IMG/VR virus record: IMGVR_UViG_3300042560_001864
Span: 1-20,009 of that record
Strand: one strand, 5' to 3'
Source: a virus
DNA length: 20,009 nt
Of the stretch, positions 2,856 through 17,662 are shown piece after piece. Position 1 is the stretch's first letter. Each line of letters opens with the position of its first letter. Below the pieces are notes generated by a model. The model made no database searches. It saw only the letters and a program-made list of their open reading frames with translations, and was not told where the DNA came from. Both the position numbers and the translations under genes were made by a program.

Positions 2856-4025
2856 TCACCCCGGGTTCAGGAAGTACTGAATCATCTCATCCATGGACAT
2901 GCTGTCGCCACCGGCGCCCTGCGGGGTGTTGCTGTAGTCGTAATACCTACGCGCAGGCTCCGCGAGCTTTCGCATCGACTGCATGTAGGTGGCGCGCGCG
3001 GCCGACTTGGCCTTGGCAAGATCCGGCGAGTCCCCCGGCGCCGGCACGTAGCGCTGGAACACGTCCCGCAGCTCGTTTGGCGTGATGGCTGCGCCAGACT
3101 CCTTGCGGAGCACGCCGGCCGCGAAGTCGCGCGCGGCGCGCAGGTACTCCTGCTCCTCGTCGTTCAGGATGACGTTGCCGGCCCCAAACGGCGTGCGGAT
3201 GGCCGACGCCAGCTTCCAGCCGCTGATCTTGCCACTCTGGCCCAGCTCGTCCATGGTGACGCTCGCGTCGTCCATCAGCTTGGCATACAGGTAGCTCTTC
3301 TCCTGCGCCTCCGTCGGACGAGCGGGCGGGCGCGGCACCGACGGTCGGGGGCCAGTGGGCACGCGCTCGCGCATCCCGGTGTCGAACCGCTGCCCGGGCT
3401 GGAGTTCCGGCACCTGCACGAAGGCGACGCTGCCGTCGGCCTGCACCACCCGCTGCGGCGCCCCGGGCTGCTGCGGCTTGGGGCGCAGCCGGTCCAGCAG
3501 CGCCCCCCGCATGTTCTCGGGGGACGCCATGATGGCCTGCGACTCCTGCGGGGTGAACCCTGCCGCCTGCAGCGCCTGCACGCCCTGCCGCGTCGCCATC
3601 TCGGCCTTGCCGGCCTCCGTCCGCTCGTACGGCTGGAAGTACTTCGTCGCCTTGCCGGCGCTGTCGGTGTAGTCGAACGTGCGCCCCTTCTGCAGCCGCT
3701 CGCGCGCCTGCTTGCCCATCATCGCAAGCGCGTCGCCCGCCATCCCCAGCGACCCGGGCGCACCACGCAGCCCGCCGAGCTGCTCCATCTGTGCGGCCTG
3801 CTGCTCCAGCGGCGCATACTCCTCCAACCCCAGCTCGAAGCGCTTGAGGTTGAACTGCTGCTCCTGCGCACGCTGCTGCGCCTCGCGGGCCAACCGCTCC
3901 TTCTCCTCCTGCCGCTCGCGCTCCTCCCGCAAAGCACGGCGCTGCTGCTCCTGTGCCAAGAGCTGCATCCCCGTAGACCCCAGTGACTGCAGCCCAGCAC
4001 CCAACCCGGCAAGAAAGTCAGACAT
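2856..4025 (-). CDS. Internal virion / ejection-like protein with RKESGAAI motif (389 aa)
   Basis: The start is ATG at 4025, three bases after the upstream TAA. The N-terminus MSDFLAGLGAGLQSLG is amphipathic. It is followed by a strongly charged coiled-coil region rich in Gln, Glu and Arg (about residues 24-60), then a Pro-rich linker (about 180-240). The C-terminal domain (about 240-355) carries RKESGAAITPNEL (307-319) and YVPAPGDSP (326-334). I recognise this motif pair (RKESGAAIsp...yFPqPGDs) as recurrent in ejection/internal proteins of many phages and in large polyvalent proteins; its biochemical function is unknown. Position between two other ejection-like genes and the tight spacing suggest co-assembly inside the capsid. 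A structural protein of the tail rather than the head interior cannot be excluded. Confidence 0.6.
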   Translation of the reverse strand: MSDFLAGLGAGLQSLGSTGMQLLAQEQQRRALREERERQEEKERLAREAQQRAQEQQFNLKRFELGLEEYAPLEQQAAQMEQLGGLRGAPGSLGMAGDALAMMGKQARERLQKGRTFDYTDSAGKATKYFQPYERTEAGKAEMATRQGVQALQAAGFTPQESQAIMASPENMRGALLDRLRPKPQQPGAPQRVVQADGSVAFVQVPELQPGQRFDTGMRERVPTGPRPSVPRPPARPTEAQEKSYLYAKLMDDASVTMDELGQSGKISGWKLASAIRTPFGAGNVILNDEEQEYLRAARDFAAGVLRKESGAAITPNELRDVFQRYVPAPGDSPDLAKAKSAARATYMQSMRKLAEPARRYYDYSNTPQGAGGDSMSMDEMIQYFLNPG

Positions 4026-4028
4026 GCG

Positions 4029-6116
4029 TTAGCCCCCGAGCCCAAGCAACTGCAGGAAGAAACGGTCCTGATCGCTCAAGACCCCTTGGTTGAAGCGCGC
4101 CCTCTCGAGGTCGTTGCTGAACGCATCCTGCCCCATCCCGCGCAGGAACTGCGACCAGTTGAGGTTCTGCGAAAAGCGGTCGTTGCCAGCGTTGCGGCTG
4201 AAGTTGGCTACGTCCATCTGGTTCTGGAACCCCTGCTGCCCGAGCTGATTCTGGAACTGCAACCCCTGCAGCCCCTGCCCAAAGCTCTGCGCGTTCTGCC
4301 GCAGCCCAAAATCCGCCGTCCCCATGCGCTGGTTGAACCCTTGCGCCTCCCGCCGCAGCCCGAAATCCTGCTGCGCCATGGCGTTGTTGAACGCCGCGTT
4401 CTGTTGCGCCAGCGACAACTGCTGCCCCTGCAGTCCAAGGTTGGCGCGCCCCATCTCCTCGCTCAACGCTGCCGCGCGCTGACCCTGCCCCATCCCGATG
4501 GCCTGCGCGCGTGCGCCGGCAAAGTCGCGCGCCCGCTGCCCCGCGAGGTCGGACGCCAACTGTGCCTGAGCGCTCCTCTGCTGCACGTTCAAGTCGGACA
4601 ACCGCCCGCCCATGATGCTCGAGTCCGACAACCCCCGCGCCGCCATCTCCTCGCGCAACGCCGTCTGCCGCTGCGCAAACTCGTCGTCGATGTTCTGCCC
4701 CATCTCGCCGTACAGCCGTCGCACCTCCGCGTTGTCGAACGCGGACGGGTTCTGCAGCGCCTCACGCAGGGACTGCTCGGTCAACGAGTTCACGTCGAGC
4801 ATCTGCGCGCCTTGCGCACCGCCGCCAGTCGCTGCGAAGCCGGAAGATGCGCTCGCCGCCGGTGACCCGGCGGCACCACCACTGGGCGCGGCCGCAGGCG
4901 CGCTTTGGCCCGCTTGTAGTTGCGCAAGCCGCTCCTGTGACGGCGCAGTGGTCGTCCACTGCCCGTCGTAGTAGTACTGGATCGGCTGCCCATAGGTGTG
5001 CGATTGCAGGTACTCAGCGCCGGGGTTGGCCTCCAGCACCGAACGGCGCACCAGATCCTCGGTGGACTCCCCGGGGCGTGCCGATACGGAACGAACAGGC
5101 CCGGGAATGGGGACTGGGGCTGGCCCCTGCGTCGTCTGCGCCGCCTGCGTTGCCTGCGCAGTCGATGGGAATGCTGCCGCCTGCGCAGGCGTCTGCATAG
5201 ACGATTGCGCCAGCATCACCGGATCGACGCCTTCCGACGTAAGCCCAGCCGGCACCGCTTGCGCAGCCTGCGCAGCCTGCGCAAGCCCCGGCGCGTTGCG
5301 GCCGAGTTGCATGAGCTGCTGCAGTTGGTCAAGAAACGACTTCGGAGCCGTGTACGGGGTGGGAGCCGTCGGCAAGGCGCCCGTCTGCAACTGGCCGGCC
5401 GCAAAGCCGGCAAGGTCAAACGGCGCCGGCGCTGCCGCCGAATTTTGCTCCTGACGCTGCATAAACTGCTGCTGCGCCGCCATCTGCCGCTGGAACCCCT
5501 CCGGATCCATCATGGCCGCGATGGGGTCCAGCCCCATCTGCTGGGCCTGCTGCATGGCCGCTTCCTGCTGTGGCGAGCGCTGGCCCTGCAGTGCGCCCAT
5601 CTGCTGCTCGAACTGCTGCCGCGCGTTGGCATCCCACTGCGAACCGTACTGCTGCTGCGCCTGCCGCATCGTCGCCAACTGCGCGTCCACGGACGCCTGC
5701 GGGTTGTAGCCTCCCTGCGCCTGCGGCGCCTGCTGCATGGGAATCATGCCGGCACCACCAGACGGCATCATCTGCATCTCCTGCTGCGCCTGCCGAGAAT
5801 ACCCCTGCGTCTGCACCGGCGGGGGCGCAGGACGCGCCTGACCCTGCCGCTGCAGCTCCGCGAACGTGGGCTGCGGTGCCTTGTTCACCGGGCGCGGCGC
5901 ATCGACAGCCTGAACCCCCTGCTCGAAATCGCCGTCCGTTTGCTGCTGGGGCTGCGGCGGGGCTTGCTGCGACGGGGGCGGCGAAGGCGTTGGCCTCTGT
6001 TGAGCTCCCGCCTGCGCACGGCGACGGCGCTCCTCCTCGTCAGTCGCCGTCTGCCCGTAGCCCGCCGCCCGCTGATCTCCGCCGTAACCGGCGGCCGGGT
6101 TGTACATCATGCGCAT
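4029..6116 (-). CDS. Gln-rich internal virion protein candidate with a C-terminal nonapeptide Phe repeat (695 aa)
   Basis: ATG at 6116 is preceded by TGAGGGCACGCT, where AGGG is a plausible ribosome site six bases upstream and overlaps the preceding stop. Residues 1-350 are low-complexity, rich in Gln, Ala and Pro and probably disordered. A small ordered patch near 350-395 (HTYGQPIQYYYDGQW) follows, then another Ala/Ser/Gly linker. From about 440 the protein is helical: EEMAARGLSDSSIMGGRLSD (489-508) is followed by Gln/Ala-rich coiled coil. From 576 to 675, twelve phenylalanines stand exactly nine residues apart. No catalytic motif or signal peptide is seen. The ARGLSDSS...L element plus Gln-rich repeats is typical of podoviral internal/ejection proteins, and its neighbours agree. 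A long structural rod protein of the tail is an alternative. Confidence 0.55.
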   Translation of the reverse strand: MRMMYNPAAGYGGDQRAAGYGQTATDEEERRRRAQAGAQQRPTPSPPPSQQAPPQPQQQTDGDFEQGVQAVDAPRPVNKAPQPTFAELQRQGQARPAPPPVQTQGYSRQAQQEMQMMPSGGAGMIPMQQAPQAQGGYNPQASVDAQLATMRQAQQQYGSQWDANARQQFEQQMGALQGQRSPQQEAAMQQAQQMGLDPIAAMMDPEGFQRQMAAQQQFMQRQEQNSAAAPAPFDLAGFAAGQLQTGALPTAPTPYTAPKSFLDQLQQLMQLGRNAPGLAQAAQAAQAVPAGLTSEGVDPVMLAQSSMQTPAQAAAFPSTAQATQAAQTTQGPAPVPIPGPVRSVSARPGESTEDLVRRSVLEANPGAEYLQSHTYGQPIQYYYDGQWTTTAPSQERLAQLQAGQSAPAAAPSGGAAGSPAASASSGFAATGGGAQGAQMLDVNSLTEQSLREALQNPSAFDNAEVRRLYGEMGQNIDDEFAQRQTALREEMAARGLSDSSIMGGRLSDLNVQQRSAQAQLASDLAGQRARDFAGARAQAIGMGQGQRAAALSEEMGRANLGLQGQQLSLAQQNAAFNNAMAQQDFGLRREAQGFNQRMGTADFGLRQNAQSFGQGLQGLQFQNQLGQQGFQNQMDVANFSRNAGNDRFSQNLNWSQFLRGMGQDAFSNDLERARFNQGVLSDQDRFFLQLLGLGG
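4059..4391 (-). repeat. 27-bp-periodic protein repeat: Phe every nine residues
   Basis: In the 695-aa protein, phenylalanine occupies residues 576, 585, 594, 603, 612, 621, 630, 639, 648, 657, 666 and 675 with no break in register. The next Phe residues are at 686-687. Four residues after each Phe there is usually Leu, Met or Val (580, 598, 616, 625, 634, 652, 661, 670, 679). The rest is mostly Gln, Asn, Gly, Ala and Arg, and Phe is often followed by Asn, Gln, Ser or Gly. Sequence identity between units is low apart from these positions, so the repeat is kept at protein level rather than as a recent DNA duplication. Confidence 0.85.
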
Positions 6117-6125
6117 AGCGTGCCC

Positions 6126-6800
6126 TCAGAAAAGCAGGTAAGGGGTGAACCGCGCCATCATCATCTCCTCCTCAGCCGTCCGCCCGCCACCGCCACCCAT
6201 TCCGCCGCCGGTCCCGCCGCTCATCCCGCCATCCGACGGGGGAGGCGTCTGCGCGCCGTACATCCCCGGCATGTCGCCCTGAAACTGCAGCCGGTTCCGC
6301 GCCGCGATCAGCGCGGCCGGATCCATTCCGCCCATGCCAGCCTTGTAGTTGCCAGCCGCCGTCCGCTGCGCGTTCAGCACGTCGGCAAGGCCGCCCGTGG
6401 CCTGCCCGCGCCCGGGGATCCCGCCCTGCGTGTAGTCGCGCGGCTGGAACGCCGCCGGCATGGCGCCCGCGCGCTGCGCCAACATGTACGCGGCGCGATC
6501 CGCCAGCGGGTTCAGGTTGATCTGGCGCTGCAGCGCCGCCGCCTGCTGCGCGCGCTGGTCCATCTGGCCGACGCGATTCGTGTTGAAGTTGGCACCGAAC
6601 TGCCGGTCGCTCTGGCCCATCTGGTCGCGCTGCAGCGTGTTGCCCTGCGCCATCTGCTCGCGCTGGAGCTGCTGCTGCTTTGCAAACTGGTCGGCCTGCT
6701 GCCTGAGCTGGTCCCGGTTTTGCTTTGCCTGCGTGCGAGCCGACAGCGCCGAGCCAAGCGCTTGCGCGCCCATTGCCACAGCCATAAACGGGAAAGGCAT
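6126..6800 (-). CDS. Small internal virion / ejection-like protein (224 aa)
   Basis: I place the start at ATG 6800 and not at a farther upstream in-frame codon (6839), because AGGAG lies eight bases before it and the preceding gene stops only one base away (TAAGATG). The N-terminus MPFPFMAVAMGAQALGSALS (residues 1-20) is hydrophobic and Ala-rich with no charge, like a membrane-active helix. Residues 20-90 form a Gln-rich coiled coil (QAKQNRDQLRQQADQFAKQQ). The C-terminal third is Gly/Met/Pro-rich and ends FTPYLLF. Size, amphipathic start and position ahead of larger ejection-like genes recall the small ejection protein of P22-type phages (gp7), but I see no diagnostic sequence match, so this is inference from architecture and context. 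Confidence 0.55.
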   Translation of the reverse strand: MPFPFMAVAMGAQALGSALSARTQAKQNRDQLRQQADQFAKQQQLQREQMAQGNTLQRDQMGQSDRQFGANFNTNRVGQMDQRAQQAAALQRQINLNPLADRAAYMLAQRAGAMPAAFQPRDYTQGGIPGRGQATGGLADVLNAQRTAAGNYKAGMGGMDPAALIAARNRLQFQGDMPGMYGAQTPPPSDGGMSGGTGGGMGGGGGRTAEEEMMMARFTPYLLF

Positions 6801-6801
6801 C

Positions 6802-7080
6802 TTACTCGCTCCTGAACGTGATGAGGTCCACCGTGCCACCTGCCGGCGCGACGGTCCCGAAGTTGACCGTGCAGCCTGTCGTGCTCTTCGCTGTCACCCA
6901 CACCGTCGTCCCCCAGCTCGGCGTCGCGCACACGCCAAACGCCGCGTCCACTTCCGCGCGGGGGAAGGTCACCGCCACGCTGCCCGCCCCCGTCGTCACG
7001 GTCTGCCCCACGATGTTGCCCGCCGAAGTCAGGAACCGGCGCCGCAACCGCAGCCAGTAGGTGTCGTCACGACCCGTCAC
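6802..7080 (-). CDS. Small beta-rich tail-associated protein (92 aa)
   Basis: The frame is open farther upstream, but that part overlaps the 66-aa gene. The likely start is GTG at 7080, one base after that gene's TGA. The protein begins VTGRDDTYWLRLRRRF and continues with alternating hydrophobic residues: SVAVTFPRAEVDAAFG, a TPSWGTTVWVTAK strand pair, then TTGCTVNFGTVAPAGGTVD. The pattern 'conserved TPxW near mid-domain, K-x-T-x-x-G-C/F-x-V-x-F, then APAG' is common in small beta-sandwich proteins and fibre tips of phages that bind surface sugars (similar in style to H-type-lectin-like domains). This is pattern recognition only. No clear ribosome site precedes the GTG, so translation may depend on coupling to the gene before it. 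Confidence 0.6.
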   Translation of the reverse strand: MTGRDDTYWLRLRRRFLTSAGNIVGQTVTTGAGSVAVTFPRAEVDAAFGVCATPSWGTTVWVTAKSTTGCTVNFGTVAPAGGTVDLITFRSE

Positions 7081-7297: not shown

Positions 7298-9271
7298 TTA
7301 CCACACGGTGACGCGCACGCGGCCCGCGCCGCCTGCGCCACTAGTCCCGCCGCTCGTGCCCGAACCGCGCCCGCCACCTCCTGCGGGCTGCGTGCCCGCC
7401 ACGCCCTCAGCGCCGCCCGCTCCGCCGTAGACGCTCGTCCCGGCGGTCACCGTCCCGCCGTCGTTTCGACTGGCGCCTGCGCCTCCACCGTAGATGGCAT
7501 TCCGGTATCTGTCGTACACGGCGTGGACACTAATGCCAATTGTTGATCCGGGCGCGACGCCACCGACAAACGGCCCCTGAAAGAAGTCCATGTTGGCAAG
7601 CGACACTGCGGTCCAGTCGGTAATTTCGGTGCCAATGCGGTAGTTCGACCCGCCACCGACAGGCAAACCGCTAGTGCGCCCGCCGCTGCCGCCATAGGCG
7701 GTGCAATGCGACCCCAGCGACGAATTGCCGCCCGCGATCCCGTTGGCGGCGATAGTGCGCGCGCTACCGCCAGCGCCCACCGTCGCCGTCTCCGTCGCCC
7801 CCAAGTCCGACAGCTTCATCAGCACGAACATGTAGCCGCCGCCACCGCCGCCGTTGCGGCCGGCGGTCGTGCTGTCGTTTGAGCCGCTGCCGCCAGCACC
7901 CCAGCATTCCACCAGCGCCATCGAGCCCAGCGCCGGCTTGGTCCACGTCCCCGAGCTGTTGAACGTCTGCTGGTCCAACGGCTGCGCCGTCGTCACCCAC
8001 GACAGGTTGCCACTGCCGTCGTTCGTCAGGCACGTATTGGCCGCGCCTTGCGCGGTCGGCACCGTGTAGTCCACCGTGTTGAGCCGCAACTGCGCGCGCT
8101 CCAACGACACCTTGCTGCCGTTATCCTTGACCGCGCTGTCAGCAAGCTGCGAGCTCGTGCCGCCGCCCGTGAAGCGGGGCAACGTGTCAGTCGTGCCCGC
8201 GCCGCTAACCCCAGACGCCAGCCCCACCACGTCCAATCGAATGTCCCCGGACGTGTTGGTGACGGTGATGTTGTTGCCAGCCGTCAACGTCTTCAGCGTG
8301 TAGCCGGTCCCGTTGCCAATCGGGAGCTGACCGTTGCTCGGCGCGCTCGTCAGCCCCGTCCCGCCCTTGCTCACGGGCACCGTTGCGAGGGTCGTGCTGA
8401 TGCTGGCGCCGCTGCTCAAGTCGGAGGACACGGACCCGCTCACGTCGCCCGTCAGCGCAAACGTGCGCGCGCTCGACAAGGCGGTGGCCGTGCCCGCATT
8501 GCCCGTCACGTTGCCCGTCACGTTGCCCGTCAGCGCCCCAATGAAGCGGGTTGTCGCCGTGATCTCGTTCCCCGCAAAATTGCCGCTGCCGTTGCGAATC
8601 ACGGCGGTGTTGGGCGTGTCACTGGCGCTCTGGACGTACTGCGGCTCCGAAGCCTCAACGAGGATCACGCCGTTGCTGGCGTGCGCCCGCAGCACATACG
8701 CCAGCGCCTGATACAGCCCGCTAGCCGGCTTGCTGGCCGTGAATCCCCCCGTCGTGTTCGGGTACAGGATGTCACCGGCGTTGAAGGCCACCGTGTTGAT
8801 GTTGCGAATCAGGCCGGTGTTCGTGACATAGCCCGTCGCGCCGTTGGCGATGTCGTCGCGAGCCACGCCCAGCGCCACGTCCGTCGCGCTCGAGACCTTC
8901 GCCACCTCCGTGACCCCAAGCCCAACATTAAACCCGGTCGCCTTGACGACATCGCCCTTGACCAACGTCTGCGTGGCCTTGACCGGGAAGTTGATGTGAT
9001 CGGCGCCCATCTCGTGCCACGCGGAGCCGTCATCGTACCACCAGCGATACTCGCCCGTGTCCGTGGTGGCCCAAATGCGCCCCGCTGTCCCGGGCACCGG
9101 CCGCGAGCCAATCGCGGACGACTGGACGTGAATCGTCGCGTCCGCGTCGTGCGCGTTGTACTGCGTGACGGTGGCGTTGTCGTTCAACCGCACCTCGTCC
9201 GCGTTGACCGGCGACGTGTTGTTGACCGGAATCGTAAACTGTGCCTGCTGATGCGAGCCGATAATCGGCAT
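7298..9271 (-). CDS. Tail fibre / receptor-binding protein with glycine-rich C-terminal domain (657 aa)
   Basis: The start ATG at 9271 overlaps the stop of the nozzle gene (TGATG), and GGAG lies nine bases upstream. N-terminal attachment region: about 1-90, containing GRIWATTDTGEYRWWYDDGS (64-83), a stretch often seen in fibre N-termini. Residues 90-215 look like a beta-rich capsid/fibre-type domain. Residues 215-430 hold fibre shaft repeats (GNEITATTRFIGALTGNVTG, VSKGGTGLTS). From about 433, TFNSSGTWTKP and LVECWGAGGSGS open a glycine-rich tip domain that runs to the C-terminus with several GGGGG runs (GAGRVRVTVW at the end). Glycine-rich tips of this kind mediate host receptor binding in several phages. 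The lack of an intramolecular chaperone suggests that the small downstream genes might assist folding; that is inference. Confidence 0.8.
   Translation of the reverse strand: MPIIGSHQQAQFTIPVNNTSPVNADEVRLNDNATVTQYNAHDADATIHVQSSAIGSRPVPGTAGRIWATTDTGEYRWWYDDGSAWHEMGADHINFPVKATQTLVKGDVVKATGFNVGLGVTEVAKVSSATDVALGVARDDIANGATGYVTNTGLIRNINTVAFNAGDILYPNTTGGFTASKPASGLYQALAYVLRAHASNGVILVEASEPQYVQSASDTPNTAVIRNGSGNFAGNEITATTRFIGALTGNVTGNVTGNAGTATALSSARTFALTGDVSGSVSSDLSSGASISTTLATVPVSKGGTGLTSAPSNGQLPIGNGTGYTLKTLTAGNNITVTNTSGDIRLDVVGLASGVSGAGTTDTLPRFTGGGTSSQLADSAVKDNGSKVSLERAQLRLNTVDYTVPTAQGAANTCLTNDGSGNLSWVTTAQPLDQQTFNSSGTWTKPALGSMALVECWGAGGSGSNDSTTAGRNGGGGGGYMFVLMKLSDLGATETATVGAGGSARTIAANGIAGGNSSLGSHCTAYGGSGGRTSGLPVGGGSNYRIGTEITDWTAVSLANMDFFQGPFVGGVAPGSTIGISVHAVYDRYRNAIYGGGAGASRNDGGTVTAGTSVYGGAGGAEGVAGTQPAGGGGRGSGTSGGTSGAGGAGRVRVTVW
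8498..8533 (-). repeat. 12-bp tandem repeat (x3) coding for TGNV units in the fibre shaft
   Basis: On the plus strand, attgcccgtcac, gttgcccgtcac and gttgcccgtcag follow each other without a gap. On the coding strand they give TGNVTGNVTGNA in the fibre protein, about residues 247-258. Two units differ from the middle one by a single base each, so this is a recent, in-frame duplication able to lengthen or shorten the shaft in steps of four residues. Confidence 0.85.
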
Positions 9272-10794
9272 CAGAACCGTCTCCCGTAAAAGAAGCCCTC
9301 AACCTCGGCACGGCTCCACACGCTCTGCGCTTCGCCGCTATCGGTCAGCAACACGTCGATGTACGGCCCGTAGCCGTTCACCGGCACCCGTTCCGGCTTC
9401 TGCGCCCCCCCGCCCCACGTCCCCGTGCCCCACGTGCCCGTGCCCCATTGCCCGAGCCCCGCGCCGTTGTTCGGCAACGTCGAGGAGCCGGATCCGTTGT
9501 CCGTCAGCCACGTGACCGCACACTGCGACGAAGACTTCTGCCACACCTGCAGATACACCCACTTGTACGCCTTGAATGTCAGCGAATCGCCCAGCACCAT
9601 GCGGCGGCAGCGGACAGCCATGCTGAACACGGTGCCGCCCGTGCCGGCCGCCGGCACGTTGTCGCGAAACACGTTCGGCGCGTCGCACTCCGTCACGTAT
9701 CCGCCGGCGTCTCCGCGCAGCACGATGGGCTGCTTCACGTCATCTTCCGCTTCCCACAGCGCCTTGGTGTTGGGATCCAAGTAGCCCGCCGCGCACGGCC
9801 CCGTCCATGCGCTCAACGCATAGTTGTAGCGCAAGACGCCCTTCCCGGGGATGAACCACCACACCTCGCGCAGTGCACGGCGGTGCACACCGACCACGTT
9901 CTGCGCCGTGGTCAAGTCCAGCGACCGCACCAGCGGGTCCAGCTTCAGGCTAATCGGGGCGACCTGCGTCTCCGTCGCCACGTAGAACCCGCGATCCGAC
10001 AGGAAGTAGACGCCCTGCGGCGTCGCGACAATGCTGCGCCCACTGATAGCGCCCACGTCTCCCGTGACGCCCTGCGCGCCTGCCGCAATGGCGATGTCGT
10101 CCTGCGTCAGCCCCGTGAAGCGCGAGATCCCGGACACGTGGAAGATCAGCAGGCTGGCGCCAAACGTCGCCAGCCCCGTGATGTTCTGGTCGCTGAAGGT
10201 GCGGATGATCGCTTCGCCGCCTCCCGACGCCGTCACGCCCAGCGTGTCGCCGTTGTTGATCGCGCTCCAAAACACCTTCTGGTCCGCGCCCGTGCAGCCA
10301 AACAAGCGCTGGTTGTACACGGCGAGCTGCGTGATGCCCGCTGGCGTGTTGACGAGGTTGGTCGCCAGCGCCGTGCCGTTCCAGCGATTCAGGCTGGTGG
10401 CGCTGTCGCCGTCCGCGATGTACACCACTTCTGCCGTCGTCGTGCGGAAGCTGGCGAATGCCGGCGCGCCGGTCGCATTCAACGCCCCCGACTGACTCGT
10501 GAAGGTCGCTGGGATGGCGTAGGTGCCGGTGTACAGCGTCCCGTTGGCGACCGCCAGCAACTGCTGCGTGCCGTTGTCGCGCAGCCACGCATAGCCGTTT
10601 TGCACCCCGCTGGCGTGCAGCGGCGTGTCCGACAGGCGCTGCGTGCCCAGACGCTTCTTGATGGCGCCGAACTCGTCCAACACCGCCTCGTCCGCGCGTC
10701 GCACCTCATCCTCGGCCAACTTGTACTCGTCGGCCGCGAGGTTCAGTCCCCCCCGGAAGTCTGCTTGCACGTCGCGCACGACCGGCCGTGGCAT
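9271..10794 (-). CDS. Tail nozzle / stabilisation protein candidate, beta-propeller-like (507 aa)
   Basis: I choose ATG at 10794, which overlaps the adaptor gene's stop (TAATG), over a GTG at 10809 that would add five residues inside that gene. The N-terminus contains FRGGLNL (13-19) and DEFGAIKKRLGTQRL (40-54). This opening ('...GG-N...DE.....DEFG...KR.GT..L') is typical of podoviral tail proteins that close the portal channel, such as nozzle or stabilisation proteins related in role to T7 gp12 and P22 gp10. The middle is beta-rich with repeated short blades (VVYIADGDSATSLNRWNG, QGVYFLSDRGFYVATE), consistent with a beta-propeller. Near the C-terminus is a WGTGT repeat. The assignment rests on these patterns and on gene order after the adaptor; no sequence search was possible. 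Confidence 0.65.
   Translation of the reverse strand: MPRPVVRDVQADFRGGLNLAADEYKLAEDEVRRADEAVLDEFGAIKKRLGTQRLSDTPLHASGVQNGYAWLRDNGTQQLLAVANGTLYTGTYAIPATFTSQSGALNATGAPAFASFRTTTAEVVYIADGDSATSLNRWNGTALATNLVNTPAGITQLAVYNQRLFGCTGADQKVFWSAINNGDTLGVTASGGGEAIIRTFSDQNITGLATFGASLLIFHVSGISRFTGLTQDDIAIAAGAQGVTGDVGAISGRSIVATPQGVYFLSDRGFYVATETQVAPISLKLDPLVRSLDLTTAQNVVGVHRRALREVWWFIPGKGVLRYNYALSAWTGPCAAGYLDPNTKALWEAEDDVKQPIVLRGDAGGYVTECDAPNVFRDNVPAAGTGGTVFSMAVRCRRMVLGDSLTFKAYKWVYLQVWQKSSSQCAVTWLTDNGSGSSTLPNNGAGLGQWGTGTWGTGTWGGGAQKPERVPVNGYGPYIDVLLTDSGEAQSVWSRAEVEGFFYGRRF
9415..9447 (-). repeat. 15-bp tandem repeat coding for WGTGT units
   Basis: Plus-strand 9415-9429 (ccacgtccccgtgcc) and 9430-9444 (ccacgtgcccgtgcc) differ at one base and are followed by a third cca. 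On the coding strand they give WGTGTWGTGTW at residues 450-460 of the nozzle candidate. The repeat is in frame and would change a surface loop by five residues per unit. Confidence 0.8.
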
Positions 10795-11471
10795 TACACG
10801 CCACCCCACTCGTACTGGTCGTCCGTGTACCCCATCCGCAGCGGCCGCGTGCTCATCCGGCCCAGATCCTGATGCATCGACTCGCGGAGCTGCTGCGCGC
10901 GCATCGACAGCTCGGCCGACAAGTTCGTCTCGGCCGCGCCCTTCATCAGCATGGACGCTGCCGTCTCGTAGGCCAGAATGAGGTCGTACCCGTCGGGGAA
11001 CACGACCGTGCTGCTATCGCTGACCAGCAGGTCGGCGCGCTGCGGAAGGTGGTTCACCACCACCGTGATGGGCGTGCTCTGGACCGGCCCCGGGATGAGC
11101 TGGATGGCGTCGCCGTACTCGTACCAGATGTACGGGAGCGACACTGCCGTGGGCGACACCGGGTAGTCTTCGTACTTGGCCGGCTGGTAGAACTGCTGGT
11201 CCAACCGCAGCGACAGCACCCGGAACCACGTCTCGGTGGCGTCGCCGCTGCCGTCGTTCAGCGCCGTCTTCAGAATCCGGCCGTCCGCGTCCGTGGCCGG
11301 CGTGCGCGTGCCCACCCGCAACATCCGGTTGACGGACAACAGCGTGCGCCACTCGCGCCAGTGCACGTCGCCCAAGAGCTGCCGCTTGAGCGTGGTGCCC
11401 CAGCGCGGCGAGCCCACGGCGTCCGCCATCTCGTCCACCAGCGTCATCAGGGTGCCGCGCGGCATGCCCAT
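10794..11471 (-). CDS. Head-to-tail adaptor candidate, SU10-type (225 aa)
   Basis: ATG at 11471 is preceded by GAGGTGTAACGC, with the ribosome site inside the end of the upstream gene; a second ATG at 11465 is possible. The protein starts MPRGTLMTLVDEMADAVGSP, a helical opening, with WREWRTLLSVNRMLRVGTRT following. The middle is beta-rich (YPVSPTAVSLPYIWYEYGDA, IQLIPGPVQSTPITVVVN). The C-terminal helices include LILAYETAASMLMKGAAETN and YTDDQYEW. The order 'N-terminal helices, WxxW, beta sandwich with the IxLxPxP element, then a long helix' is that of podoviral adaptor proteins that bind below the portal, as described for phage SU10. Position between the head genes and the nozzle candidate fits. 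Confidence is moderate because no residue is diagnostic. Confidence 0.6.
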   Translation of the reverse strand: MGMPRGTLMTLVDEMADAVGSPRWGTTLKRQLLGDVHWREWRTLLSVNRMLRVGTRTPATDADGRILKTALNDGSGDATETWFRVLSLRLDQQFYQPAKYEDYPVSPTAVSLPYIWYEYGDAIQLIPGPVQSTPITVVVNHLPQRADLLVSDSSTVVFPDGYDLILAYETAASMLMKGAAETNLSAELSMRAQQLRESMHQDLGRMSTRPLRMGYTDDQYEWGGV

Positions 11472-12065: not shown

Positions 12066-12497
12066 CTAGTAGAGGTACTGCAGCTCGACGGTGACCACGA
12101 GGTCGTCGGGCTGCACCGAGACCGCGCCGGTCGTGACCAGCGAAATCTTGACGGTGTCGCCCGTGTCGAGCAGACGCTGCGCGTCGGTGAGGGTGGTGAG
12201 CAGCGATCCGGCCTGCACCGTCTCGGCCGTCTTCGCGTTGATGTCGATGGCCGAACTGAGCGTGACGTTGCCAGCCGCCGAGGCGTCCCGCTTGACCAGC
12301 GTGACCGTGCAGTTGGTCGCGGCGGTCGGATACGTATCGGCCGACACCTGCACCGCGCTGATGATGGCCTTGTGGGGCAGTCCGCCGAGGTTGTGGGTCT
12401 GCGTACCGGCCGCCAGCGTGCCGGTGTTGATGCGCTGCTGGATGATGATCGGCTGGATCCCGAAACGCCCGGGGCGTGGCGAGAAGAAGTTCAGCAT
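12066..12497 (-). CDS. Beta-rich virion protein candidate next to the capsid gene (143 aa)
   Basis: ATG at 12497 has GGAG seven bases upstream (CGGAGAGCCTACATG), a strong site. The protein begins MLNFFSPRPGRFGIQPIIIQ and continues with alternating hydrophobic and Thr/Val residues: THNLGGLPHKAIISAVQVS, CTVTLVKRDAS, VKISLVTTGAVSVQ, ending VVTVELQYLY. Predicted by eye, it is a small all-beta protein without membrane segments or catalytic motifs. Its position directly after the major capsid gene, with its own hairpin on either side, fits a capsid decoration, cement or head-fibre protein, or a head-tail joining component. I do not recognise the family, so the function is inferred from position and fold only. 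Confidence 0.7.
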   Translation of the reverse strand: MLNFFSPRPGRFGIQPIIIQQRINTGTLAAGTQTHNLGGLPHKAIISAVQVSADTYPTAATNCTVTLVKRDASAAGNVTLSSAIDINAKTAETVQAGSLLTTLTDAQRLLDTGDTVKISLVTTGAVSVQPDDLVVTVELQYLY

Positions 12498-15011: not shown

Positions 15012-17288
15012 TCACATCACCGGGAGTGCGGTCGGTGCGGCTGCGCTTCCGCCCTGATCCGGCGGGGCCGCCGGGAGGCCAGACTCGCTGCCGAACGTCG
15101 GCGCCATGGATGGCGGCAACGGGGTGGGGGCCGGTACGCCCTGCGGGGCTCCCTGCGGAGCGCCTCCACCCGGGGGTTCCTGCTGTTGCTGCGGCGCCGC
15201 TTCCATCTCGGGCTGGCCGGGGGGAGGGGCGCCCTGCTTCTGCGCGGCCTGATTCGCCAGCGCCGTCCACCGCTCCTGCGCGGCAGCCCGGACCTCCGGC
15301 GACACGTCAGCGGCCAAGATGATGTCGCGGTCCAGCACGTCCTGATGGACCGCCTCGTCGTCCTGCCACACAATCGCCTCCGGCTCCATCCCCATCCGGA
15401 TTGCTTCGGACACCCGCTTCGCCTTCGCCTCCTGCACGTCGTACGGCGTCGTCGAGTCGGGCGCGTAGGCGAACGGGCGCAGTCGGCGGTACTCCTTCGG
15501 GTCGATGATGCCCTTTTCCAGATCCTGATCCAGCAGGAACAAGCGCATGGTGCGCGGCATGGGCATGAGCGTCTCCGCGTCCACCTGCACGTCCACCACC
15601 TCGTCGAAGTCCACGCTCGAGAACTCGCGCGCCAAGTCGGGGCGGTTGGCCCCCACGACCGCCAGCACGCGCGGCAGCCGGTAGCCCCACCGCATCCACG
15701 CCACCTGACACTCCGCCCACTCCGTCATGGCGTCGGACACGGCGTACACGAATGGGGCGAACGTGCGCTCAAGCTGCTCGCGGATGGCGATGATAGCCCG
15801 ACCTGACTGGTCCGAGCTGAACTGGCCGCGCGCATTGTCGTTCCACCCCGAACGGTCCTCCAGCTTCTTGGTCTCCAGCCGCAGGAGCTCCTTCGCGTCG
15901 CCCCCTACGCTGAACCCCTGCAGCGGCTGCAGCGTCTCCGAAATCGGCGCCGCCCCCTTCACCTCGATCACCGAGTTCTGGCCGCCCACGAACGTCTCGC
16001 CCACGATGGCGCCGGTCTTGCTGATGAACTTTCCGCCCGCGTTCGCGCGCACCGACTCGATCCACTTGGAGAGGATCATGTTCACGCGCATCTGCGGCGC
16101 AATCCACTCGTTCATGCGCGCCGCGCAGTAGAAATCCGGCGAGCTCGAGCCGTCGGTGACGCGCACCACCGGCACCCGGCCGCACACCAGCCCAGCCGGC
16201 TGGAACACCACCTTGTTCCCCACCACAATGAGCTGCAGCCCCTCCGGGAGAGCTTCGCACTTCTCGCAGAACACCGTCAGCCGGTCCACCGTCCGCTGGT
16301 CCTGATACAGCGGCGACTGCGTGAAGCGCAGGTCGTTCGTCTGGAAGACCTGATTGCCCACGAAGTACTCGTCCGTCTCGTCCGCCACATCCGCGCCGAA
16401 CTGCCCCACCGCCTGCGACAGCGGCAGCACGTCGCGCAGGATCCAGTAGCTCGGCGCCTGCGTGGCCGTCGCCTCCGCCGACACGCGCACCTGCTCGATG
16501 GTGTAGACCTTCGTCGCCACGTCGCCAATCGGCCGCCGTCCGGAGCCTGCCTCCAGCTCCTCCCACGGCCCTGCTTCCGGGTTCCACCACGTCAGCAGGA
16601 AGGCGCACCCGTCCGTCTGGGCGTGGTAGCCCACCTCGCGGATCAGGTTGCGCATTTTCTGGCGGTGGAACTGGTACTCCACCGCGAGCTGCATGGCCTG
16701 CGCCTTGCGCTGCCGGTCAGGATCGGGGTTGACGGGCGAGAAACGGAACCCGGGCCGCTGCTCGGACAGCACCTGCAGGTGCCAGTCCAGCGCCGGCCCA
16801 ATCTGGTTGTCCACCGCGCGCACCGCGTCCTTCGGCATGAGCGGCTCGCGCCAGCTCCCCCGGTTCGCAGTGCTGCTCACCCACTGAATGCCCTTGCGGA
16901 ACAGCCGGTTGCGGCTGGCGTCGTAGATGGCGTCCTGCACGCCGGCACGGTGCTTCTCCCACCGCCCCTTCGCCCACGACACCCAATCGTCCTGCCCGGG
17001 GTCGCCGTCCATTGCCAGCGGGAAATCGTCGCCGTAGGCCGCCCGCAGCGCCGCCTTGCGGCTCCGCTCCGCCTCCCGCGCCGCCTCCGCGTTCTGCTCT
17101 GCCATCTGCTCGGCCTGCCGGCGCAGCGCCTCCGCCTCCGCCTCCGCCGCCGCTGTCGCGTCCTCCTCGCTGGGCGCCTCGTAGCCGCCCAGCAGGAACG
17201 CCTCCGCCCCCAACGGCGCGTCCTCGAACTCGTCCTCGAGCTCGTCCTCAAGCTCGTCGTCCATCAGCGGCAGTCGGGGCGTCGTCAT
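15012..17288 (-). CDS. Portal protein (758 aa)
   Basis: ATG at 17288 overlaps the stop of the membrane-protein gene (TGATG) and is preferred over a GTG at 17291. Residues 10-25 are an acidic repeat (DDELEDELEDEFED), then an Ala/Glu-rich coiled coil runs from about 45 to 85. The portal core begins near 100: FRKGIQWVSSTANRGSWREP (130-149), DNQIGPALDWHLQVLSEQRP (160-179) and the long helix AQAMQLAVEYQFHRQKMRNL (197-216). GYHAQTDGCAFLLTWWNPEA (220-239) and the stem-region motif GQFSSDQSGRAIIAIREQLE (488-507) are strongly portal-like. Cys lie at 341, 344, 369 and 388. The last 80 residues are Pro/Gln/Gly-rich. The size is in the range of P22- and N4-type portals. It forms the dodecameric DNA gateway in the head vertex. 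Confidence 0.87.
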   Translation of the reverse strand: MTTPRLPLMDDELEDELEDEFEDAPLGAEAFLLGGYEAPSEEDATAAAEAEAEALRRQAEQMAEQNAEAAREAERSRKAALRAAYGDDFPLAMDGDPGQDDWVSWAKGRWEKHRAGVQDAIYDASRNRLFRKGIQWVSSTANRGSWREPLMPKDAVRAVDNQIGPALDWHLQVLSEQRPGFRFSPVNPDPDRQRKAQAMQLAVEYQFHRQKMRNLIREVGYHAQTDGCAFLLTWWNPEAGPWEELEAGSGRRPIGDVATKVYTIEQVRVSAEATATQAPSYWILRDVLPLSQAVGQFGADVADETDEYFVGNQVFQTNDLRFTQSPLYQDQRTVDRLTVFCEKCEALPEGLQLIVVGNKVVFQPAGLVCGRVPVVRVTDGSSSPDFYCAARMNEWIAPQMRVNMILSKWIESVRANAGGKFISKTGAIVGETFVGGQNSVIEVKGAAPISETLQPLQGFSVGGDAKELLRLETKKLEDRSGWNDNARGQFSSDQSGRAIIAIREQLERTFAPFVYAVSDAMTEWAECQVAWMRWGYRLPRVLAVVGANRPDLAREFSSVDFDEVVDVQVDAETLMPMPRTMRLFLLDQDLEKGIIDPKEYRRLRPFAYAPDSTTPYDVQEAKAKRVSEAIRMGMEPEAIVWQDDEAVHQDVLDRDIILAADVSPEVRAAAQERWTALANQAAQKQGAPPPGQPEMEAAPQQQQEPPGGGAPQGAPQGVPAPTPLPPSMAPTFGSESGLPAAPPDQGGSAAAPTALPVM
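17221..17256 (-). repeat. 12-bp tandem repeat (x3) coding for the acidic portal N-terminus
   Basis: Plus-strand units tcctcgaactcg (17221-17232), tcctcgagctcg (17233-17244) and tcctcaagctcg (17245-17256) follow each other. They code for the ELEDELEDEFED stretch of the portal. Units differ by one or two bases, so the acidic tail has grown by in-frame duplication. Confidence 0.8.
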
Positions 17289-17662
17289 CACGCCATCCCG
17301 GTCTGCGACCAGCCCGGGGGCGCCAGCATCGCCTGCGCATCCATGCGGCCCATCTCAGCCCGCACGCTGTCCCAGTTCCGGTGCTTCATGTACAGCTCGC
17401 GCGCCAGCGCCTGCATCGAATCGCGCGCCCACGTCTCCGTCTCGGCGTTGATGCGAAGCTGCAGGTCCACGGGGATGTCCTCCTCCACGCTAGCCGGCAG
17501 AATGGCGCGCTGCTCTTCCAGCGTCAAACGCCGCTCCTCCAGCGTCAAACGCCGCTCCTCGAGCTGCGCGCGCCGTGCACGGTCCTCGCGCGCCAGCGAC
17601 AGCAGCCCCCACCCGCAGGCCGCCATCGAGACCGTCAGTACCAGCAGGATCGCGGTGTCCAC
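17288..17662 (-). CDS. Single-pass membrane protein with coiled coil, function unknown (124 aa)
   Basis: The open frame extends upstream inside the 152-aa gene, but the credible start is GTG at 17662, two bases after that gene's TGA. The protein starts VDTAILLVLTVSMAACGWGL, a hydrophobic segment (about 4-24) with no positive residue before it, then AREDRARR, which by the positive-inside rule would tend to leave the C-terminal part in the cytoplasm. Residues 33-52 form a tandem repeat (LEERRLTLEERRLTLEEQRA). A helical C-terminus (about 65-112) contains WARDSMQALARELYMKH. I do not recognise the family. An i-spanin-like lysis protein or a holin partner is possible, but no outer-membrane lipoprotein, endolysin or second membrane gene is nearby. 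It overlaps the portal start (TGATG), so it is translated with it. Confidence 0.65.
   Translation of the reverse strand: MDTAILLVLTVSMAACGWGLLSLAREDRARRAQLEERRLTLEERRLTLEEQRAILPASVEEDIPVDLQLRINAETETWARDSMQALARELYMKHRNWDSVRAEMGRMDAQAMLAPPGWSQTGMA
17518..17559 (-). repeat. Perfect 21-bp tandem duplication in the membrane/coiled-coil gene
   Basis: ccagcgtcaaacgccgctcct occurs at 17518-17538 and again, identically, at 17539-17559. It is in frame and codes for RRLTLEE units, extending a coiled coil by exactly one heptad. Confidence 0.9.

Follow-up and report, generated by a model that had tools for sequence, protein, structure and literature searches.

It is, to our knowledge, an open question how short-tailed phages construct the tunnel that crosses the envelope of the cell, and we know of little sequence signature in most of their ejection proteins. 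Among the systems closest to the locus analyzed here, phage P22 ejects gp7, gp16 and gp20, which are thought to form a trans-periplasmic conduit with gp7 perhaps as its virion-proximal part (PMC8402733). In phiX174, H-protein helices rich in Gln, Asn and Arg assemble into a tube for DNA whose lining consists of amides and guanidiniums, with Asn, Gln or Arg at 18 of the 23 inward positions (PMC7354561). Nine-residue repeats are known from single-core coiled coils, where nonads strain the helix and form beta-layers (PMC4786415).

We analyzed a DNA stretch of 20,009 nucleotides from an uncultured podovirus (IMG/VR record IMGVR_UViG_3300042560_001864; hereafter the window), in which a 695-residue protein, g695, carries a regular array of phenylalanines near its C terminus. 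The features on which the argument rests are the following:

4029-6116, minus strand: g695, the 695-residue ejection-like protein with the array; an open reading frame with same-frame homologues of 96%, 40% and 38% overall identity
4800-6116, minus strand: N-terminal low-complexity half of g695, rich in Pro, Gln and Ala (residues 1-439, by direct reading), which varies between homologues
4488-4799, minus strand: conserved helical 'RGLSDSS' domain (about residues 440-543), from a tblastn match in L349 and from hhalign
4392-4445, minus strand: degenerate units that precede the array and share its phase (residues 558-575, ANLGLQGQQ LSLAQQNAA), read directly, with Leu or Ala replacing Phe
4068-4391, minus strand: the array, 12 nonads forming six 18-residue A/B repeats (residues 576-683), defined by register and alternation
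4032-4127, minus strand: C-terminal cap (AF.NDL..A.F ... LQLLGLGG, about residues 664-695), conserved in homologues and overlapping the last two nonads
2856-4025, minus strand: g389, a 389-residue downstream gene product with weak matches to phrog_35431 and to the gene downstream of a phrog_6121-type protein in Rhizobium phage RHph_N2
713-2851, minus strand: g712, 712 residues, phrog_5880 (unknown function), homologous to RHph_I1_23 gp015
9271-10809, minus strand: g512, a 512-residue P22 gp10-like tail protein (phrog_3287) with weak similarity to the ctLwi270 'phage stabilization protein'
15012-17291, minus strand: P22-type portal protein (PF16510 above cut-off; phrog_156)

The P22-type portal, the gp10-like g512 and g712 place g695 in the tail and injection setting of a podovirus. 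Despite its Pfam P22_portal match, the portal has no tblastn match at E 1e-5 in 50,697 phage records, so this appears to be a phage lineage without close isolates. Full-length g695 has no family match in Pfam, PHROGs or NCBIfam, a profile of its C-terminal part finds nothing in the PDB, and the sole PHROG match of the C-terminal fragment is a weak one to phrog_21397 (E 0.0014, collinear with fragment residues 15-247). tblastn of g695, of its domain and of the array-bearing homologues against the same 50,697 phage records gave no match, nor did a domain search of the genome-contig collection.

The family relationship emerges from the domain ahead of the array. A domain profile built from four phages aligns collinearly over 66 columns with a profile of the corresponding domain from eight phrog_6121-type proteins (hhalign, E 4.7e-5), scoring 28.5 against at most 16.1 in 30 column shuffles. 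Earlier hhalign comparisons with single sequences (Jasmine gp26, RHph_I1_23 gp013 and a 354-residue protein of ctLwi270) were not convincing, and the match became significant only with the multi-sequence profile. As judged by this profile comparison, residues 440-543 of g695 are homologous to phrog_6121/phrog_4287 structural or ejection proteins, and the homology concerns the domain only: the family proper is defined by a full-length match that includes a PLNEI..L.SG.QV segment and an S74-like end, whereas g695 ends in the array and the LQLLGLGG cap. The relatives are annotated as 'virion structural' or 'DNA ejection' proteins of P22-like podoviruses (Rhizobium, Sulfitobacter, Mx8). Those of Rhizobium, Sulfitobacter and Stenotrophomonas directly follow gp4-like, gp10-like and N-acetyltransferase (gp14-like) genes, and immediately on their 3' side lie, by annotation, hydrolase, transglycosylase, tail, injection or hypothetical genes, with an 'injection' or peptidoglycan-hydrolase gene in several cases; downstream of the Myxococcus Mx8 and Mx9 relatives, the genes are hypothetical or structural. 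In RHph_I1_23, a phrog_4287 'DNA ejection protein' lies two genes before the g712 homologue, the same spacing as from g695 to g712. We read the slot of g695 from g512, g712 and the phages of its relatives because two further genes, g225 and g237, are not assignable. The preliminary description had called g695 ejection-like; domain homology and gene position support this, and g695 is probably an ejection protein, with packaging and ejection both predicted. Could it instead sit on the outside of the virion, as the shaft of a tail fibre or other appendage, and not be ejected at all? Relatives such as L348, RHph_N2 and phiGT1 have as their last part a Peptidase_S74-like chaperone domain of a kind common on tail fibres, and a tail-fibre gene lies nearby (7298-9271). 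However, g695 has no S74-like end, the genes of its relatives are flanked by gp14-like genes on one side and injection-protein genes on the other, and phrog_4287 is labelled DNA ejection protein; we consider an external shaft very unlikely.

The neighbouring genes offered some observations of their own. The 237-residue g237 (6126-6839, minus strand), just upstream of g695, is also rich in Gln, Met and Arg; it is 83% identical to its counterpart in L126 with an insertion, and its length varies. The Gly-rich tail-fibre-like protein at 7298-9271 (minus strand; PF21722, phrog_863) keeps its first ~90 residues in the relatives L128 and L129, where much of the remainder is exchanged, which is what a host-range gene would show. 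The gene that follows the one for the capsid (12066-12497, minus strand) has a weak match (E 2e-4) to a PHROG labelled Rz-like spanin, a label made doubtful by a position that suggests a head protein. In RHph_I1_23, gene 014, the positional counterpart of g389, contains an annotated attL site (L154:10178-10190, plus strand).

The starting observation of the preliminary description, twelve phenylalanines in steps of nine without a slip, is fully borne out. They occupy residues 576, 585, 594, 603, 612, 621, 630, 639, 648, 657, 666 and 675, separated by 11 equal gaps, and the next Phe are residues 686 and 687. On the minus strand, residue 576 is encoded at 4389-4391 and residue 675 at 4092-4094; the span first given to the array, 4059-4391, covers these phenylalanines (4092-4391) and also takes in F686 and F687. 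Taking the longest run of F at any fixed lag between 2 and 24 as the statistic, g695 reaches 12; 5,000 shuffles of the whole protein never exceeded 5, and 20,000 local shuffles of residues 560-692 never exceeded 6, which rules out chance or composition as the source of the register. The hydrophobicity autocorrelation at lag 9 that had been proposed as a check is present over the same residues (z = 4.7), though lag 18 is higher (z = 6.6); lag 27 gives 4.1. Leu, Met or Val stands four residues after Phe in nine of the twelve units by direct reading, as had also been noted. A recent DNA tandem repeat is ruled out by the mean pairwise unit identity outside Phe, which is 14%, and an artefact of another reading frame by homologues that keep the same frame.

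Control scans for Phe codons every 27 nt in viral and genome collections place these numbers in context. Among the matches listed after filtering, those outside the family were DNA tandem repeats, T-rich or wrong-frame matches, collagen-like FQG repeats and FxxNxI-type repeats, the last of a kind that we take to be seen in beta-helices. The unit identity of the listed DNA tandem repeats was mostly 0.4-1.0. The g695 family has the most divergent units (0.14) among the listed long open reading frames with a Phe run of at least 5, bar one short T-rich match, so that in this set Phe stays in register as the other positions diverge. The claim that selection maintains the register is supported by its retention in distant homologues: a register that is real and kept over such distances is therefore a selected one. 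Between the window and its close relative L001, the array has a pN of 0.011, below the pS of 0.04 per site, with only 3 changes each. In the genome collection, two helical-looking stretches with F at position 0 and L/M at position 4 were also seen: L338:5251-7086 (minus strand) has 19 near-perfect FQKVLQNDA nonads in a row, and L328:621-1766 (minus strand) has 13 near-perfect FREALKSDA nonads in a row, in a stretch open in several frames whose coding frame is uncertain.

The repeat, however, is not one of nine residues as first described. Its nonads alternate between two classes, A with the consensus F-[QN]-[NQ]-x-[LM]-x-x-A-[DQE] and B with [FL]-x-N-x-x-G-Q-Q-[AG]; therefore, the true unit is 18 residues long, one A plus one B nonad, and nine is half of it. 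The same alternation is found in the window, L149, L131, L348 and L350. At nonad position 7, a small or hydrophobic residue occurs in 24 of 27 A units and in one of 26 B units (Fisher 9e-11, a value that overstates independence because units of one array are related by duplication, and for a position picked after looking); leaving out L350, the counts are 20/21 and 1/21. Permuting the units within arrays reproduced the alternation in none of 20,000 trials. By whole-unit similarity of even and odd units, L149 is significant (0/5,000), whereas the window taken alone gives only a trend (p 0.13). The view that the units share little besides Phe holds on average, given the low identity, but hides this alternation, in which more than Phe is shared. 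The 18-residue repeat is real and under selection, and it is unannotated as far as the searched libraries and literature show.

How the array behaves across relatives speaks to its origin. IMG/VR contains two contigs nearly identical to the window, L001 and L002, with 96% protein identity to g695, and two distant homologues, L131/L148 (40% overall) and L129/L149 (38% overall, 36-49% by segment). Against L001, the region of residues 440-575, which includes the pre-array domain, is the most conserved part of g695 and has no amino-acid change. In L149 the phase holds for 26 nonads, the last 16 units having F in 12 and L in 3, and a stretch of 27 residues appears again, in register, 72 residues further on. 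L131 has an eight-unit terminal array (six F, one Y and one R) and an upstream array offset by one register slip. A scan with the C-terminal cap retrieved three more sequences. L349, found downstream of g225- and g512-like genes, has the domain and retains the cap but hardly any array. L348 belongs to phrog_6121 (E 1.4e-67) and shows six Phe spaced at lag 9. L350 is another protein altogether, and its nonads are of the Y/F/L type. The nine-residue register expected of homologues is thus present in L149 and, with one slip, in L131, and all but missing in L349 and absent from ordinary family members, so the array cannot be essential to the function that they share. Its visible length in five phages is about 1, 6, 8, 12 and 16-26 nonads.

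Two of these relatives invite a closer description. Upstream of its Phe array, L149 (8001-9287, plus strand) contains Leu-rich GNLDL-type units at 18- and 11-residue spacing (e.g. YSLGLGNLDLGRTRAAQD), and part of this stretch has the highest AlphaFold helix confidence (pLDDT 70-80). L350 (4783-6729, plus strand; IMGVR_UViG_3300020045_006575) encodes a 649-residue protein with no family match and two stretches that follow the A/B grammar (YQNELQKAQ LENEQKQQE FENQFSTAQ ...), apparently in a protein context that differs from that of g695.

A comparison of L348 with its close relative L351 bears on growth: the two are ~71% identical in the matched pieces, and L348 has an insertion of ~100 residues that holds the Phe array. 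Ordinary phrog_6121-type members have only a stub at this position, which in some prophage relatives reads F-x-N-[SA]-A-R-Q-[LY]-P just ahead of the next conserved segment and resembles the last unit of L348 (FNNSARQSD). A phrog_6121 search of 385 genomes of one bacterial class found full-length prophage members, with no array in those inspected, and the window array profile had no match in the same 385 genomes. The array seems to have grown from such a stub by in-register duplication in 18-residue steps, and may have done so in two or more lineages at equivalent places.

Eighteen residues are exactly five turns of an alpha-helix. On a wheel computed at 100 degrees per residue, class A nonads place Ala at 340, Phe at 0, Leu/Met at 40 and Asp/Glu/Gln at 80 degrees, with Asn/Gln at 200, and class B nonads place Phe/Leu at 180 degrees and a weaker hydrophobic position at 220. 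The hydrophobic pattern gives a second harmonic of 14.3 for the window array and of 17-33 for L149 (99.9% shuffle limit ~6-7), and a first harmonic of ~1, meaning no ordinary amphipathic moment. A strong second harmonic without a first is what a helix striped on two opposite sides should show, and the residue pattern fits the earlier proposal of rows on two opposite helix faces. Because the same pattern also peaks at 4.5 residues, it is by itself no proof of a helix. Both AlphaFold2 models, made from an alignment of only three sequences, are helical without any strand at a mean pLDDT of 45.7 and 49.8. With such scores from three sequences and a hydrophobic pattern that is not decisive, we call the helix likely and no more.

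The same data have to be weighed against other architectures. In a Hartmann-type alpha/beta coiled coil, the array would form a trimeric fibre in which each nonad adds a core layer at position 0 and a beta-layer at 3-5. Nonads hydrophobic at 0 and 4 do resemble IANMATKDD (PMC4786415), and many beta-layers occur in phage proteins. Yet nonads are equivalent in those structures while g695 alternates with a period of 18, position 4 is a bulky Leu or Met in A and often Gln or Ala in B, and neither of the low-confidence models contains a strand; such a fibre is highly improbable. Over the Phe array itself, pLDDT is 30-50 in both models. Values mostly below 50 and a composition rich in Gln, Asn and Gly would suit a disordered chain with Phe as stickers, packing densely in the head and passing the portal unfolded, and ejection proteins must partly unfold to exit the particle (PMC10172136). 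Disordered stickers, however, do not need a register without slip for up to 26 units or an A/B alternation at fixed positions, and we regard disorder as fairly unlikely. The models also interrupt the helix once or twice (H60-158/H168-252 in one; H69-213/H272-376/H382-427 in the other), and the neighbouring g389 has a charged, Gln-rich N-terminal stretch, as could be expected if a two-faced helix folded back on itself or zipped up with helices of g389 or g712 into an antiparallel or intramolecular bundle, giving a head core and no tube. Neither model shows confident contacts, though, and the break points differ between homologues, so that a bundle, too, has only a small chance of being correct.

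The picture that we favour combines these elements. g695 would be an ejection (pilot) protein carried inside the virion of a podovirus whose portal and tail gene are of the P22 type. It would take the place that gp7 has in P22, and an expanded array of 18-residue A+B repeats follows its conserved helical domain. As 18 residues make five full turns, the 108 residues of the array would run as a single straight helix, free of supercoiling and ~16 nm long at 1.5 Å per residue. One face would bear a strong seam of Ala (340 degrees), Phe (0) and Leu/Met (40) and the opposite face a Phe row, with Gln, Asn, Arg and Gly between the two. The seam of one copy could dock on the Phe row of the next, yielding a ring or tube with polar, amide-rich walls, either as a core packed in the head or, after ejection, as the lining of a DNA conduit. 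Taken as a whole, our best explanation is that g695 is an ejection protein in whose lineage a helical 18-residue repeat has expanded and packs side by side into a ring or tube, and we give it about an even chance of being right; the lateral packing of the helices is, on its own, tentative and somewhat less than an even prospect. Gly and Asn, frequent in the array for a long helix, count against this explanation. One may speculate further that the repeat number of a straight-walled, amide-lined helix tube sets the length of the DNA conduit, as a ruler for the envelope or the head core. We find this distinctly unlikely; were it true, the lengths would be ~8 nm in L348, 16 nm in the g695 phage and 22-35 nm in L149. 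An 18-residue grammar whose arrays lengthen and shorten from one close relative to another provides a rule of construction, open to testing, that links helix faces, repeat number and conduit length, and the A/B repeat is a sequence signature with which similar arrays can be sought.

Finally, we would like to compare g695 with the systems it most resembles. The phrog_6121/phrog_4287 proteins (RHph_N2, Sulfitobacter pCB2047-C and phiGT1, Mx8 p54) share the helical domain with its motif R/N-x-G-[IL]-x-x-[GS]-[ST] and the corresponding gene slot, and their sequence after the domain also looks helical; however, in the place of the g695 array they show a stub at most, and many have the S74-like end that g695 lacks. 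L348, with its six Phe, is the one member of this family found with an array. With P22 gp7/gp20/gp16 and T7 gp14/gp15/gp16, g695 has in common the gene order after gp10-like tail genes and the proposed role in a DNA conduit (PMC8402733, PMC8954989); no sequence match to g695 was found, and the relevant sections of these papers describe no 9- or 18-residue repeat in the P22 or T7 proteins. RTX nonapeptide beta-rolls (GGxGxDxUx) were rejected as a candidate, since GGxGxD is absent and the unit consensus of g695 is F[QN][NQ]x[LM].... The alpha/beta coiled coils of Tcar0761 and OMP100 likewise have nonads that are hydrophobic at 0 and 4, but theirs are all equivalent, with a beta-layer triplet at 3-5, whereas g695 alternates A and B, has a Phe core and, in low-confidence AF2 models, no predicted strand. 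A working analogue in design is phiX174 H, a DNA-delivery protein, as is predicted for g695, with Gln/Asn/Arg-rich helical repeats and periodic hydrophobics. H belongs to an unrelated phage and builds a decameric tube from 11- and 7-residue repeats, in contrast to the periods of 9 and 18 and the phenylalanines of g695; the composition and two-faced pattern predicted from the g695 sequence are no more than compatible with a tube of the H type.
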